A stretch of DNA of 24,136 nucleotides from a virus: the IMG/VR virus record IMGVR_UViG_3300010389_001668, positions 1-24,136 of that record, one strand, 5' to 3'. Below the pieces are notes generated by a model. The model did no database searches. It had not been told where the DNA came from and saw only the letters and a program-made list of their open reading frames with translations. Below, piece after piece: positions 530 to 24,136 of the stretch (within the stretch, counting starts at the first letter, position 1; every line of letters starts with the position of its first letter). A program made the translations under genes and the position numbers.

Positions 530-579
530 TTTTTAAACAAGTAGTAAGTCCATCAGGGAAATGGTGGAGGTACTATGCT

Positions 580-646
580 CCCCGCACCCTCAGCGGGGAT
601 ATGAGAGACGTGCTTTATACACCCTATAGGTCTCGGTTTGGGGTGT
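580..646 (-). promoter_or_regulatory. psbA mRNA leader with two hairpins (PhotoRC-like candidate)
   Basis: Between the psbA promoter and its ATG lies a leader of about 160 nt. Reading the minus strand it can form ACACCC/GGGTGT (641-646 with 619-624, 16-nt loop) and then CCCCGC/GCGGGG (593-598 with 580-585, 7-nt loop). The second hairpin has no T-tract and is followed by about 50 nt of leader, so it does not look like a terminator. Structured leaders named PhotoRC-I and PhotoRC-II are described upstream of psbA in marine cyanobacteria and cyanophages. I cannot compare this one with their consensus here, so the assignment is inference. Confidence 0.45.
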
Positions 647-688
647 TACAACGGTTTAAAGATTATTTACAATCCTTAACGTGTTGAT

Positions 689-5884: not shown

Positions 5885-6073
5885 TCAAGTAGTCCGTTTT
5901 ACTTCGTAGATTGTTGAATCACCATAGATCTTATGGTCTTTATATCCAACCATGCGTCCCTTCGTATTTTGTAGGGCAGGCATAAATGCGATAAAGAAGA
6001 ATACAGCTGGTGCTCCTACAAAAAGGAGACTCGCAATGACATAATAAGTCAGCAGTTCTGCAATATCATGCAT
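5885..6073 (-). CDS. 62-aa membrane protein of the photosynthesis operon, unknown function
   Basis: The product has a hydrophobic segment LLTYYVIASLLFVGAPAVFFFIAFM (about 7-31), long enough for one bent or one and a half helices. A basic, Gly/Tyr-rich tail (GRMVGYKDHKIYG) follows. Its ATG shares one base with the stop of the long HLIP gene (TGATG), so the two are co-translated. Location between an HLIP and ferredoxin suggests a thylakoid role; the family is not recognised. Confidence 0.75.
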   Translation of the reverse strand: MHDIAELLTYYVIASLLFVGAPAVFFFIAFMPALQNTKGRMVGYKDHKIYGDSTIYEVKRTT

Positions 6074-6282
6074 CAGATAACACCAAAGAAGAATTTGCCA
6101 GTGATTGCATAAGACAGGAATCCAGCAACGATACCCATCATTGCCCAGCGACCATTCATTTTTTCAGCCTTCTCAGCATAAGGTTCAATACCATAACGCT
6201 CAAGGGCTTCCTTGGTCATATACATGGAAGGTTCTTTGGCAAACATATTCATTTGCCCAAACTCATTTTTTGTTACAGTCAT
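6073..6282 (-). CDS. hli: High-light-inducible protein (HLIP), 69 aa
   Basis: The 69-aa product has the complete one-helix chlorophyll-binding signature AEKMNGRWAMMGIVAGFLSYA at its C-terminal half (E-x-x-N-G-R-x-A-M-x-G), followed by a TGKFFFGVI end. This is typical of cyanophage and marine cyanobacterial HLIPs. The N-terminal 38 residues are polar with several Met and may face the stroma. It is the first gene of the operon, 20 nt after the predicted transcription start from the promoter at 6310-6338. Confidence 0.96.
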   Translation of the reverse strand: MTVTKNEFGQMNMFAKEPSMYMTKEALERYGIEPYAEKAEKMNGRWAMMGIVAGFLSYAITGKFFFGVI

Positions 6283-8790: not shown

Positions 8791-9758
8791 TGCAAAATCT
8801 TCTCAATATTTTGTACATACTTATCAATAAGTTTAGTTAGAGAGAACGTCTCCATACCATACTCACGAATCTCTTTACGATGAGCAGCAGAGTATTGACG
8901 GTTCTCCTCAACTGCCTGAGTTACATACTCAATGTCCTTGAGTTTGTCATCAGGAATCACAGTAACAAAAGGTTTGTCAGTGTCAACCTCACTGGCACTA
9001 TGCTTTGAGATCACAACACCAAGACCATTGACTAGTGCTTCTTTGATTGCAAGAGAGGTTCCGTTCTCACCATCGCTCAACAATACCATATTAGCATACT
9101 TTGTCAGGTCACGACAGAGGTCTTCTCTACTCCATTCACCTTTATAATTGTGTCTGCGAGCATCAAATCCTGTGCCAGTTTCATACTTACCAACAAAGTC
9201 AATGCTGTCAATATCCTGATAAATGTCTTGCTTCTTGCGTGGAGAGATTTTACCAAGATAGATTGACTTGCCTGGATACTCACACTCCTCATTGTAGGTA
9301 AACTCAGGGTCATTTGTACCCTCCATCAACCAAAAGAGTCTATCCTCTTCCCAACCATTCTTTTTGTAAAACTCAACATCCTTAGGGGAGACCGCAAAGT
9401 TATAATACTTCTCTTTATTATTCTGCATCCACTCAGCAACTCTCCAATAACCATCCTTCTTATGCCAATCAGGTTGATCGATATATGGATAGTGACTGCT
9501 AAACAGGATGGGGCACTTCACCTTACCATAGAGAAAGTCTACAACAGGATAGAACATATCATAGTGAATATGGATTACATCAAAGTCACCCTCAAGGCAA
9601 TTCTTTGCAATCTCATTCATATCTGGGGTGTTAATAATCTCACCAGTGTGCCCCTTCTCTCCAAGGATACAAGCACGATCCCACATCTGTCTCTCAAGTG
9701 CTCCCCATCCGTCAGGTGGGATTGGCATGATGCCAGGTCCAACTAAACAAATTTTCAT
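8787..9758 (-). CDS. GT4-like glycosyltransferase, paralog of the neighbouring gene
   Basis: From ATG 9758 (MKICLVGPGI) the product has 323 aa and shows IPPDGWGALERQMWD (13-27). Later it has YLGKISPRKKQDIYQ and a donor-site region SDGENGTSLAIKEALVNGLGVVIS, where the Glu spacing is one residue longer than E-x7-E. These blocks match the 314-aa neighbour, so the pair arose by tandem duplication. The chosen start gives ATGA overlap with the upstream gene and has GAGG before it. The altered Glu spacing may mean a different donor sugar. Confidence 0.85.
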   Translation of the reverse strand: MKICLVGPGIMPIPPDGWGALERQMWDRACILGEKGHTGEIINTPDMNEIAKNCLEGDFDVIHIHYDMFYPVVDFLYGKVKCPILFSSHYPYIDQPDWHKKDGYWRVAEWMQNNKEKYYNFAVSPKDVEFYKKNGWEEDRLFWLMEGTNDPEFTYNEECEYPGKSIYLGKISPRKKQDIYQDIDSIDFVGKYETGTGFDARRHNYKGEWSREDLCRDLTKYANMVLLSDGENGTSLAIKEALVNGLGVVISKHSASEVDTDKPFVTVIPDDKLKDIEYVTQAVEENRQYSAAHRKEIREYGMETFSLTKLIDKYVQNIEKILQ

Positions 9759-21055: not shown

Positions 21056-21879
21056 TCAAGTATCTCCCAATGTTCTGGATATAAGTCTTTTGTATTTTTG
21101 TCTCTTAATGCTGGTCCAAACCAGTGTTTTGGTGCAATGACCCTTCCTTTGTTTGCAAACCAAGCACCCCACCAAGAGAATGTAGAGTTGGCAATGATAA
21201 AGTCTGAGCACAGACTCATCAGACACATGTCAACATAACCACTGGTATTCTCAGAGACTAGGAATCTGTCATCAGAGAACAAGTCCTGCTCTTTGCACCA
21301 AGATGGATCATCAGAGAAGACAATAACATTTGCATCATCTGGAAACTTTGCAAGTGCTTTTTTATAATAATCCAAACCAAGATTATTATGATTAGCAGAG
21401 TTTTGAATATAATCTGTTCGACGGATATGTAAAGCAACAATTGTAGGATCAGGATCTTCAGCATAAAGAGATCCCATCATCTCATTACAAGGATCAAGTA
21501 TTTCTTTTTTAAAAGTAAAGTCCTTACGGATAATATCCTCTACATTTTTAAAATACTTTTCTGTTTGAAAAAATCCATACAGACTTACCCAATCAGGACA
21601 ATTGTTAAATAGATCCTCATCAAATTCAAATCCTCTCTCTTTTCTATAAGGTCTACTTGGATCAATGGACTGAAGATTGAGAGAGGTCACACTACTCATC
21701 TCAAAACAATCAAACAACTCTGTTCTGAGCATATTCCCAATACCATCATCGACAGCATCTTTGTAAAAGGGAAGGCAAAAGTTGTGTCCATTGTTTGCAG
21801 CGATTCCACGAAGAGCAGCATATTGGAACATTTGGTTTCCCAGGCGTCCCAATCTACCCAAATGATTAAATCCAATCAT
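21052..21879 (-). CDS. Glycosyltransferase family 11 (alpha-1,2-fucosyltransferase-like)
   Basis: GT11 enzymes transfer fucose, or a related GDP-sugar, to galactose. The 275-aa product has GRLGNQMFQYAALRGIA (11-27), the nucleotide-binding HIRRTDY (151-157), VFSDDPSWCKEQ, and FIIANSTFSWWGAWF. All four are GT11 signatures in order, and the length is standard. GDP-L-galactose from the adjacent epimerase resembles GDP-L-fucose, so L-galactose could be the donor; this is inference. ATGA overlaps join it to both neighbours. Confidence 0.95.
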   Translation of the reverse strand: MIGFNHLGRLGRLGNQMFQYAALRGIAANNGHNFCLPFYKDAVDDGIGNMLRTELFDCFEMSSVTSLNLQSIDPSRPYRKERGFEFDEDLFNNCPDWVSLYGFFQTEKYFKNVEDIIRKDFTFKKEILDPCNEMMGSLYAEDPDPTIVALHIRRTDYIQNSANHNNLGLDYYKKALAKFPDDANVIVFSDDPSWCKEQDLFSDDRFLVSENTSGYVDMCLMSLCSDFIIANSTFSWWGAWFANKGRVIAPKHWFGPALRDKNTKDLYPEHWEILE

Positions 21880-23021
21880 CCTGCAGCAATCTCCTCACTG
21901 ATTTCAGTATCAGCATATGCATTAATGGCAAGTCTCAGGTCTATCTGCTTCTCAATCCATTCATAAGTCTTGCGAATACCTTCCTCAAGAGTCATCTCAT
22001 AATCCCAATCAAGTTTTTCTCGAATGAGATCATTGTTGGAGTTACGTCCACGAACACCAAGAGGTGCATCTAATTTATGAAGTCTTTGAACAGGTTTGCC
22101 AGCAACCTTAGATACGATCTCAACCAGTTCATTAATAGTTACCATCTCTTCCGAACCAATATTTACTGGTCCCTCAAAATCAGATTCCATCAGACGACGA
22201 GTTGCCTCAATACATTCATCAATATAAAGGAATGAACGAGTTTGCATTCCGTCTCCCCAAACCTCAATAGCACCACCTACAGGGGGCAAAGATGCTACCT
22301 TGCGACACATTGCCGCTGGTGCTTTTTCTCGTCCACCTTCCCAGGTTCCTTCGGGTCCGTAAATATTATGGTATCGAGCAACACGTACAGGAATACCGTG
22401 ATTCCTGCTGTAAGCAAGGTACATACGCTCGGAGAAGAGTTTCTCCCATCCATACTCTGAGTCTGGTGCTGCTGGGTATGCTGAGTCTTCACTACAATCG
22501 GGATTATCAGGATCAAGTTGATTATATTCGGGATACATGCAAGCAGATCCAGAATAGAAGATCTTAGTAGGTTGTTCTAGTTTAGGACGGTTGCAAACAG
22601 TTCCAACCTTTTCTATACCATCAAAGGTCTCGTTGAACTTACGAACCTCTTCAAGTACGTTTAGATTGATTAATGCAGAGTTGTGCATGATGTTTGCATC
22701 GTTTTCTCCAGTAAATACAAATCCTGCACCACCCATATCAGCAGCAAACTGATAGATTTCATCAAATGGGAGTAGATACTGATAGGGAACATTAGAGGTA
22801 AAGTTTCCTTGGTATCCTTTAAACTCAATAACGCGACGAACAAAGTTTGGATCACGTAGGTCACCACGTACAAACTCATTAGCAGCAGTGATACCAAACT
22901 CTGGATACTTTAGATCAACACCACGAACCCAGTATCCTTCGTTTCGGAGTCGGTAGACCATATGGCTTCCAATAAATCCACCAGCACCTAGAACTAGTGC
23001 TGTCTTCTTATACTCAGACAT
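21876..23021 (-). CDS. GDP-mannose 3,5-epimerase-like SDR (WcaG/COG0451 superfamily)
   Basis: The enzyme converts GDP-D-mannose to GDP-L-galactose in plants and some bacteria. The 381-aa product has GAGGFIG (12-18), FAADMGGAGFVFTG (92-105), the active-site SGSACMYPE (157-165) with Ser/Cys, the catalytic pair Tyr190 and Lys194, and RYHNIYGPEGTWEGGREKAPAA. These match GDP-mannose 3,5-epimerases closely. Compared with that family an insertion of about 20 residues lies before the active-site strand (near 130-152). It is the first gene of the glycan operon, with ATG 28 nt after the -10 box at 23049-23054. Confidence 0.92.
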   Translation of the reverse strand: MSEYKKTALVLGAGGFIGSHMVYRLRNEGYWVRGVDLKYPEFGITAANEFVRGDLRDPNFVRRVIEFKGYQGNFTSNVPYQYLLPFDEIYQFAADMGGAGFVFTGENDANIMHNSALINLNVLEEVRKFNETFDGIEKVGTVCNRPKLEQPTKIFYSGSACMYPEYNQLDPDNPDCSEDSAYPAAPDSEYGWEKLFSERMYLAYSRNHGIPVRVARYHNIYGPEGTWEGGREKAPAAMCRKVASLPPVGGAIEVWGDGMQTRSFLYIDECIEATRRLMESDFEGPVNIGSEEMVTINELVEIVSKVAGKPVQRLHKLDAPLGVRGRNSNNDLIREKLDWDYEMTLEEGIRKTYEWIEKQIDLRLAINAYADTEISEEIAAG

Positions 23022-23048: not shown

Positions 23049-23077
23049 ATTATACAAAAAAAGAGGGGTTGTTGCAA
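23049..23077 (-). promoter_or_regulatory. Promoter of the glycan operon, nested in an upstream terminator
   Basis: A perfect TATAAT (23049-23054, minus) is preceded after 17 nt by TTGCAA (23072-23077), which matches the -35 consensus at four of six bases. The -35 box lies at the loop of the terminator hairpin 23063-23083, and the T-run fills the spacer. Transcription is predicted to start near 23041, giving a leader of about 20 nt before ATG 23021. This repeats the layout seen at 6310-6348. Confidence 0.75.
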
Positions 23078-23083
23078 CCCCTC
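23056..23083 (-). terminator. Intrinsic terminator between the GC-rich region and the glycan operon
   Basis: On the minus strand GAGGGGTTG (23075-23083) pairs with CAACCCCTC (23063-23071) around a three-base loop, and seven T follow (23056-23062). It is a nine-pair stem, strong enough to end transcripts coming from the small genes to the right or from the GC-rich region. It may also act as a regulated attenuator for the glycan operon. Confidence 0.88.
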
Positions 23084-23289
23084 TCAAAAAATATTTACGC
23101 GACGCGCCACGCTATTTTGACTGAATAACGAAACAGGCGGGGTATACCCCATCCGCACCAGCGACATTTGAGAGATGCCGCAAACTCCGAGGGTCAAAGG
23201 ACCATCCCGACCAGGGCAATGTTAACGTCATTCCGAGACGGGCATATTAGGGATGACTCCACCAGGATAATTTAGAGTCTATCCAGGAC
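23084..23289 (-). ncRNA. GC-rich candidate structured RNA upstream of the glycan operon
   Basis: This 206-nt stretch has no clear gene and is distinctly GC-rich (68 of 120 bases, 57%, at 23101-23220, against about 40% around it). On the minus strand it can form GCGGCAT/ATGTCGC (23175-23181 with 23161-23167, one G-U pair, seven-base loop), GGTC/GACC (23200-23203 with 23192-23195) and the palindrome GGGGTATACCCC (23139-23150). The G-U pair favours the minus strand as the RNA. It ends in the intrinsic terminator 23056-23083. Cyanophage wcaG and manA RNA motifs are described before sugar genes; the first operon gene here is of the WcaG superfamily. An alternative is the 39-codon frame inside it. 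Confidence 0.4.
23112..23231 (-). CDS. Possible 39-aa ORF inside the GC-rich region (doubtful)
   Basis: ATG 23231 opens 39 codons with a Trp/Pro-rich start (TLPWSGWSFDPRSLRHL) and an Ala/Gly/Val-rich second half. No clear Shine-Dalgarno sequence precedes it, the frame crosses the predicted hairpins, and a 39-codon frame can occur by chance in a GC-rich stretch. I list it because it is the only frame of note in this gap. Confidence 0.18.
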   Translation of the reverse strand: MTLTLPWSGWSFDPRSLRHLSNVAGADGVYPACFVIQSK

Positions 23290-23535
23290 TCAGAAAGGAA
23301 GTTTTTGACTTCTACCAAGGAAAGTGATGAGAGTTTCAAGTCTCTCACTTACAGCAGATACATCTCCACCTGATGCTTTAGCACCACATGGTTCATGAGA
23401 TCTTTCTTCCAGAGCAGCAAGTCTTGCTTCAATCTCTGCAAGTTTCTTTTCTACTTCTTTATCATACGCAGACATATATGGTTGCGAAGAAGAGGATGTA
23501 GATGAGGAAGATGAGGATGTTCTTCTAGTTGCCAT
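23290..23535 (-). CDS. Small Ser-rich coiled-coil protein, unknown function
   Basis: The 81-aa product from ATG 23535 starts MATRR followed by a Ser/Thr tract at about 6-17. Then comes a heptad-rich helix, YDKEVEKKLAEIEARLAALEE (about 24-44), likely a coiled coil. A second short helix (VSERLETLITFLG) closes it. The Ser tract suggests a flexible head. No family is recognised. A 5-bp inverted repeat (GAGTC/GACTC, 23275-23291) overlaps its stop codon. Confidence 0.7.
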   Translation of the reverse strand: MATRRTSSSSSSTSSSSQPYMSAYDKEVEKKLAEIEARLAALEERSHEPCGAKASGGDVSAVSERLETLITFLGRSQKLPF

Positions 23536-23566
23536 GGTTATCAATTCGTGACTATGTGTTATTTAG

Positions 23567-23791
23567 TCAATCATACTTTCTATAAGCTCCAGGGTTATCT
23601 GGATCCAACCATTTAGTATACTCAAAATCTTCCATTGCGGTAGAGATTTGCATACTGTTATCACAAAGATACATGTCTTTATATCTCGCAGTCATAGAAT
23701 CCATTTTTTGAATCCTATAGTCTGGGTGACCATTTTCTAGAGTTCCTCGTTCAACATAACGATAGGGAAACTGCTCAAGCAGAATCTTCAT
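23567..23791 (-). CDS. 74-aa hypothetical protein
   Basis: The product from ATG 23791 (MKILLEQFPYRYVERG) is Tyr- and Asp-rich, has one Cys and no membrane segment or known motif. A TTG six bases upstream is a less likely start. It follows the 71-aa gene by 2 nt, so the two are co-transcribed from the promoter at 24032-24060. Function unknown. Confidence 0.7.
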   Translation of the reverse strand: MKILLEQFPYRYVERGTLENGHPDYRIQKMDSMTARYKDMYLCDNSMQISTAMEDFEYTKWLDPDNPGAYRKYD

Positions 23792-23793
23792 TA

Positions 23794-24009
23794 TCAAGCA
23801 ACCTCCAAGGTTTGAAGATCGTTGTAAATGTATTCCATTAGCATATCATAATCATCAAGAGGTTCACCAGAAAAAACTACTCCTTGATTTTCATAGTAGC
23901 GACGTACCTTTTTGAAAAGTTTCGGATTCTTTACATCAAGGAAAATATCGCCATTAGCGGCGTCACGGAGTGTTTGTACGTCCTTTTTGAACTTTGCTGT
24001 GAGTGTCAT
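23794..24009 (-). CDS. 71-aa hypothetical protein
   Basis: From ATG 24009 (MTLTAKFKKDVQTLRDAANGD) the product is charged and soluble, with a basic middle (KNPKLFKKVRRYYENQG) and an acidic C-terminus (DDYDMLMEYIYNDLQTLE). The frame extends to 24060, but that part contains the promoter boxes. No family is recognised, although small proteins of this type are usual in cyanophage early regions. Confidence 0.7.
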   Translation of the reverse strand: MTLTAKFKKDVQTLRDAANGDIFLDVKNPKLFKKVRRYYENQGVVFSGEPLDDYDMLMEYIYNDLQTLEVA

Positions 24010-24031
24010 TGTCTCGTTTGTTGACCTAGTT

Positions 24032-24060
24032 ATAGTAGGATTTTTTGACGGTATTGTCAA
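24032..24060 (-). promoter_or_regulatory. Promoter for the small genes at the right end
   Basis: A perfect TTGACA (24055-24060, minus) is followed after 17 nt by TACTAT (24032-24037), with a predicted start near 24024 and ATG at 24009. The -35 box begins two bases after a seven-pair hairpin (24063-24082) that follows the tRNA, so the layout resembles the two nested modules at 6310 and 23049, but here without a T-run. Confidence 0.65.
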
Positions 24061-24082: not shown

Positions 24083-24084
24083 AG

Positions 24085-24136
24085 TGCTCCTTGCGTGGAT
24101 CGAACACGCCTCAGGCGAATTATGAGTTCGCTGCAT
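24085..24136 (-). tRNA. tRNA with anticodon CAT (Met or Ile2), 3' part, cut by window edge
   Basis: The minus strand shows an anticodon stem GCGAA/TTCGC with loop CTCATAA (anticodon CAT). It is followed by a five-base variable loop, a T-arm GCGTG-TTCGATC-CACGC, the 3' acceptor strand AAGGAGC and discriminator A at 24085. CCA is not encoded. The anticodon stem lacks the three G-C pairs of initiator tRNAs, so it is elongator Met or, if C34 is modified to lysidine, Ile for AUA. The 5' half lies outside the window. Confidence 0.92.

Follow-up and report, generated by a model that had tools for sequence, protein, structure and literature searches.

The window, which is the whole stretch of 24,136 nucleotides of viral DNA analysed here (IMG/VR virus record IMGVR_UViG_3300010389_001668), carries a structured RNA on its minus strand, between a small gene and a block of glycan genes (Table 1). 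The conserved locus is fixed by an orthologue of Syn9 gp206, and the gene at 23794-24060 is 37% identical to Syn9 gp205; in cultured phages the order at this locus is talC, gp205, gp206, RNA, tRNAs or hli, and psbA. Positions 24084-24136 (minus strand) hold the apparent 3' part of a CAT-anticodon tRNA, which is cut by the window end and is absent from the ARAGORN output. Downstream of the RNA lies a sugar operon, as the initial annotation had stated: it is led by an NDP-sugar epimerase gene, and the glycan genes after it encode a family 11 glycosyltransferase, a GDP-mannose dehydratase-type protein, a GHMP kinase, and a nucleotidyltransferase. An hli gene occupies 6073-6282, so the glycan block sits between the RNA and hli. 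A PhotoRC-II RNA (RF01717, 75.8 bits) was found at 565-658 (minus strand), immediately before a psbA fragment on the same strand (2-529).

Table 1. Features at and around the RNA locus of the window.
Feature	Position	Strand	Description and basis
Syn9 gp206 orthologue	23567..23797	-	71% identity over 70 aa; PHROG 481
Upstream small gene	23290..23544	-	84 aa, coiled-coil-like; PHROG 35121; function not assigned
Unit X	23250..23291	-	Type II unit GAGTC-CTGGATA-GACTC..TTATCCTGGTGGAGTC; model R1 and covariation
Unit Y	23187..23240	-	Type II unit CGTC-TCGGAAT-GACG..TTGCCCTGGTCGGGATGGTC..GACCCTCGG; model R1
Unit Z	23136..23187	-	First half of Rfam wcaG: GAGTTT and stem GCGGCAT/ATGTCGC, then TGGTGCGGAT, then hairpin GGGGTATACCCC; RF01761, 67.8 bits
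Unit W	23103..23137	-	Last wcaG hairpin CGTTAT../..ATAGCG, then GTGGCG; predicted H-type pseudoknot, pairing CTG/CAG; RF01761
Intrinsic terminator	23055..23085	-	GAGAGGGGTTGCAACAACCCCTC and T7; hairpin 23063-23085
Predicted -35	23072..23077	-	TTGCAA, in the loop of the terminator hairpin; consensus match
Predicted -10	23049..23054	-	TATAAT, 17 nt past the -35, directly after the U-run; consensus match
NAD-dependent nucleotide-sugar epimerase	21876..23021	-	First gene of the glycan operon; PF01370, PHROG 540

A search of 1.2 kb with the Rfam models identified a wcaG RNA (RF01761) on the minus strand at 23096-23189, with a score of 67.8 bits (E 3.5e-12) against a curated cut-off of 42 bits and a match that spans model positions 1-98 of 98. 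The initial annotation had suggested comparison with the wcaG, manA, and PhotoRC models; the first matched, while neither manA (RF01745) nor PhotoRC has a match within 23084-23289, the PhotoRC-II model matching the window only at the site given above. Two minus-strand stems, GCGGCAT/ATGTCGC (23161-23181) and the hairpin of unit Z at 23139-23150, proved to be stems of RF01761, and the loop CTC of the former is able to pair with the preceding GAG. The GC richness noted earlier is also real, with 52% over 23096-23288 and 54-55% in the best 100-nt windows, compared with 39.8% for the whole window. The stretch was said to hold no convincing gene, and we agree: a 39-codon frame exists at 23112-23231 (minus strand), but a small protein was rejected there since the frame is unconserved, the same ATG opening frames of 2 to 258 codons in 21 related loci and the wcaG core lying in all three phases. 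In Syn9 and Syn10, annotated ORFs that may not be genes overlie the RNA (gp208 and its counterpart; L263 3417-3575 and L268 3423-3575).

The RNA of the window exceeds the Rfam model, as two further units, X and Y, lie upstream of it. A BLAST search against phage records matched the span 23291-23115, which extends beyond the wcaG part alone, and an Rfam search of 23190-23291 on the minus strand returned no match even at E 10. Our model R1 recovered both units, X at 23291-23259 (22.5 bits, E 7e-5) and Y at 23241-23208 (49.2 bits, E 3.8e-12). The extent first assigned, 23084-23289, was correct in marking structured RNA, but the true reach is to 23291, and the half from 23190 to 23291 is outside the Rfam family. 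In minimum-energy folding the 3' half (23049-23190) has an unusual energy (z -2.6) and the 5' half (23190-23291) does not (z -0.4); the latter is supported through covariation and not through folding energy.

This covariation comes from related phage loci. A pattern scan for the wcaG core gave at least 120 IMG/VR stretches and, with phage records and the window included, 112 loci distinct by sequence, a biased sample, since most loci were retrieved via that core and contigs related to each other do not count as independent. Pattern-scan matches in non-cyanobacterial genome contigs were, on the basis of the pattern, taken for chance. A type II unit consists of a 4-bp stem, a 7-nt loop N-Y-G-G-N-N-N, an A-rich tail, and CUGGU. 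The loop Y (Y2) pairs with a given tail base in all 88 distinct type II units (62 C-G and 26 U-A), and loop base 5 (N5) pairs with the preceding tail base in 44 of the 44 units that lack the initial loop A (24 A-U, 17 G-C, and 3 U-A); unit X has both pairs, as U-A and A-U. These loop-tail pairs played no part in finding the units, whereas the 4-bp stem was the search criterion, and its 100% pairing is therefore by selection. The covariation score, which includes the stem, was reached in 0 of 500 shuffles for either unit class. The loop GG, the AA, and CUGGU are invariant. Taken together, the aligned copies indicate that type II units constitute a second family of RNA units, across about 110 related phage loci.

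Comparison of the wcaG hairpins disclosed additional pairing. In the last hairpin, the four bases before UUU pair with the four bases at the loop start in 54 of 54 distinct in-register copies, with variants such as CTGG/CCAG, CAGG/CCTG, CCAG/CTGG, CCTG/CAGG, and CTAG/CTAG and with double changes at two of the four pairs. This pattern argues for an H-type pseudoknot in the last wcaG hairpin, a pairing absent from the Rfam structure line printed by cmscan; model R3, built for this hairpin, misses the window copy, which is shorter. The first hairpin presents weaker evidence for a pseudoknot-type pairing, its loop start complementing the three bases before UUU in 45 of 65 distinct copies against an average of 22 in shuffles. 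The initial annotation, which had named covarying pairs as a check, was right about covarying stems; in related phages such pairs are present both as loop-tail pairs and as the pseudoknot.

The array begins where the upstream gene ends: the TGA stop of the 84-aa gene, at 23290-23292, shares positions with the initial base pairs of the array. The same placement recurs among relatives, where the first unit starts at, within, or shortly after the stop codon of the preceding gene; these upstream genes fall into 23 sequence clusters, although gene calling was mechanical and may have erred in a few cases. In some loci the first unit even encodes the C-terminal residues of the upstream protein, for example ..DTDGL or ..SPGTT. 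Units at many different gene ends, varied in number and order and sometimes providing the stop codon, would be expected of a passive spacer, meaning DNA that moves by recombination from one intergenic site to another and gives the phage nothing but a terminator. Across more than 100 loci, however, the loop-tail pairs and the pseudoknot covary exactly and unpaired bases are invariant, which makes such a spacer very improbable.

Type II units also occur on their own. A strict pattern for one type II form had matches in 92 IMG/VR stretches, and across all collected loci 66 contexts were distinct and had enough sequence to be read; in 27 of these the units of that pattern had no wcaG core within 400 nt, and 12 of the 66 placed them directly behind a tRNA (9 Leu and 3 Met). 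In S-IOM18, a unit begins at 9452, the base after the annotated tRNA-Leu. Type II units directly behind a tRNA-Leu were noted at loci L269 (1153 onward), L272, L284, L312, L319, L327, L330, L339, and L347, with another tRNA or a small ORF after the units. Some units end about 2-30 nt from a start codon with no terminator between; these may take part in translation of the following gene, a point against the 3'-end reading given below.

At its other end, the array of the window is closed by an intrinsic terminator before the operon, which the initial annotation had recognized and which is real by its folding (-17.6 kcal/mol, z -5.6). With a -35 hexamer in the terminator loop and TATAAT directly after the U-run, the glycan operon has its own predicted promoter. 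Among the loci with enough sequence, a terminator lies behind the RNA in 79 of 105, and a tRNA lies within about 260 nt in 13 of 105, one of the 13 also having a terminator. The terminator-promoter composite, meaning a -35-like hexamer in the hairpin and a TATAAT-like one after the U-run, is found in 65 of 111 loci besides the window; it also occurs elsewhere, at lower density. Predicted sigma-70-like sites, scored as consensus matches, are enriched after the RNA (74 of 102 loci versus 23.7 in shuffles) and not before it (43 of 104 versus 46.3). In the window, a second composite stands at about 6315 on the minus strand (AAAGCACCTCTTGACAGAGGTGCTTT and TATACT), just before hli at the far end of the glycan block. 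The glycan block is thus bracketed by two such elements, and it may be a later insertion.

These features bear on the proposal that the RNA attenuates the operon, for which pairing between the array and the terminator arm had been suggested as an alternative fold. If an array switches a terminator, some part of it is expected to complement the terminator at its own locus. Over 79 loci, the longest run between the P2 hairpin and its own terminator arm averaged 4.13, compared with 4.11 for shuffled terminators, and the whole array gave 5.10 against 5.09; this comparison found no conserved expression-platform pairing in the array, and the attenuator acting by alternative pairing of P2 and terminator was rejected. 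The predicted promoter of the operon, which overlaps the terminator, also speaks against an attenuating regulator. The initial annotation had offered either an attenuator or a terminated sRNA, and its second option, an sRNA or 3'-end RNA, fits better.

More generally, the array could be a riboswitch that responds to a metabolite by changing read-through into the sugar genes or their translation, and wcaG was indeed rated a probable riboswitch ahead of exopolysaccharide and high-light genes (PMC2864571). Sugar genes are common behind the RNA: in metagenomic phages, the next gene is an epimerase/dehydratase in 34 of 97 cases and a nucleotidyltransferase in 12 of 97, and other sugar genes also occur there. 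The terminator between RNA and gene and the invariance of the loop GG, AA, and CUGGU, as expected of a binding site, also agree with a riboswitch. In the window a sugar gene comes next as well, yet the terminator and the predicted promoter intervene, and a predicted promoter follows the RNA in most loci. Copies at the same locus are moreover followed by tRNAs or hli: behind the RNA of ten isolates (Syn9, Syn10, S-IOM18, S-B64, S-RIM4, S-MS29, S-CREM1, S-CAM1, S-CAM3, and S-SZBM1) glycan genes are absent and tRNAs or hli-psbA take their place, whereas glycan genes do follow the RNA in the window, S-SKS1, DSL-LC02, DSL-LC03, and Sf-FS3, in some of these beyond other small genes or tRNAs. Together with the units directly behind tRNAs and the lack of conserved pairing between array and terminator, this leaves a riboswitch of the glycan operon rather unlikely.

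We give an even chance to the reading that the wcaG RNA forms the 3' portion of a modular array of pseudoknot-type units and serves as an intercistronic or 3'-end element, not as a ligand-controlled leader of sugar genes. The array would form the 3' untranslated tail of the transcript that carries the upstream small gene, starting inside the stop codon at 23290 and ending with the terminator hairpin, while the sigma-70-type promoter overlapping that terminator would start the glycan operon separately. The units would then most likely act as compactly folded plugs at RNA ends or processing junctions, marking or protecting them, and we would place protection of ends or processing first among the roles of the array; its main rivals are a trans-acting RNA and, for part of the family, a riboswitch. 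Lying at the tail of an upstream gene, closed by a terminator, and followed by an operon that apparently has its own promoter, the array does not look like the sugar-gene leader under which it is catalogued. A pure 3'-end role does not itself explain the frequent sugar genes behind the RNA in metagenomic phages, and because these remain common there, part of the family may act in cis. A literature search found no report of transcript ends for Syn9 or a related phage.

A terminated array could alternatively be released as a stable, trans-acting small RNA that binds a host protein or toxin, like the tandem-pseudoknot antitoxins of type III systems or a phage pseudo-ToxI decoy. The row of several pseudoknot-type units with a U-rich first loop and an A-rich last loop, and the terminator right behind them, resemble such RNAs, and phage PhiTE is described as carrying a decoy of this kind (PMC3475682). 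The units vary in sequence and are not repeats, however, a ToxN-type gene is not next, an Rfam ToxI match is absent, and a promoter follows the terminator, so that we regard this explanation as unlikely. Less probable again is the broader proposal that wcaG, instead of being a riboswitch, is one arrangement of a modular tandem-pseudoknot family positioned by T4-like cyanophages at the ends of genes and after tRNAs; freed as a stable RNA, it would act in trans on a host factor, for example as a decoy for a host protein of defence or RNA decay.

The wcaG RNA of marine phages is already known, and what is new here is the longer pseudoknot-like array around the RF01761 core. Type III antitoxins (ToxI, CptI, and TenpI) resemble it in having H-type pseudoknots in a row ahead of an intrinsic terminator (PMC5086642). 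They consist of tandem repeats, whereas the tandem pseudoknot-type units of the window are not one repeated sequence; the terminator is present, but the next gene is an epimerase in place of a ToxN/CptN/TenpN-type toxin gene, and the array has a predicted promoter past its terminator. The STAXI motif (RF01728) likewise has tandem pseudoknot units and no assigned function, and is found near DNA-manipulation and antirestriction genes; it repeats one unit and belongs to Enterobacteriales, while the array has several unit types, occurs in cyanophages, and has no Rfam match to STAXI. The manA motif (RF01745) is another cyanophage RNA, in S-CREM1 located between tRNA genes together with an abiF RNA (L006 4568-4920), a few hundred bases past wcaG. 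Its structure is different, and it matches nothing in the window; kinship of the array to manA was dropped on structure.

The closest comparison is with the wcaG motif (RF01761) itself. Weinberg et al. 2010 judged it a probable riboswitch with exopolysaccharide or high-light genes as its apparent targets (PMC2864571), and this cis-regulatory reading has been repeated in cyanophage papers (PMC9602691, PMC9964418, PMC10665884, and PMC12197685). If wcaG acts at 3' ends or between cistrons, looking for a sugar ligand means probing the wrong end of the transcript. The invariant loop GG and the covarying loop-tail pairs of the new unit family offer a concrete structure testable in cultured phages such as S-CREM1 and S-IOM18. 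The window RNA is a member of the motif over the full model, from a marine cyanophage with a sugar gene behind it; unlike the motif as described, it adds two upstream units without an Rfam match, its last hairpin is a likely pseudoknot missing from the Rfam structure line, and its position and the predicted promoter point to the 3' end of an upstream transcript and not to a leader.
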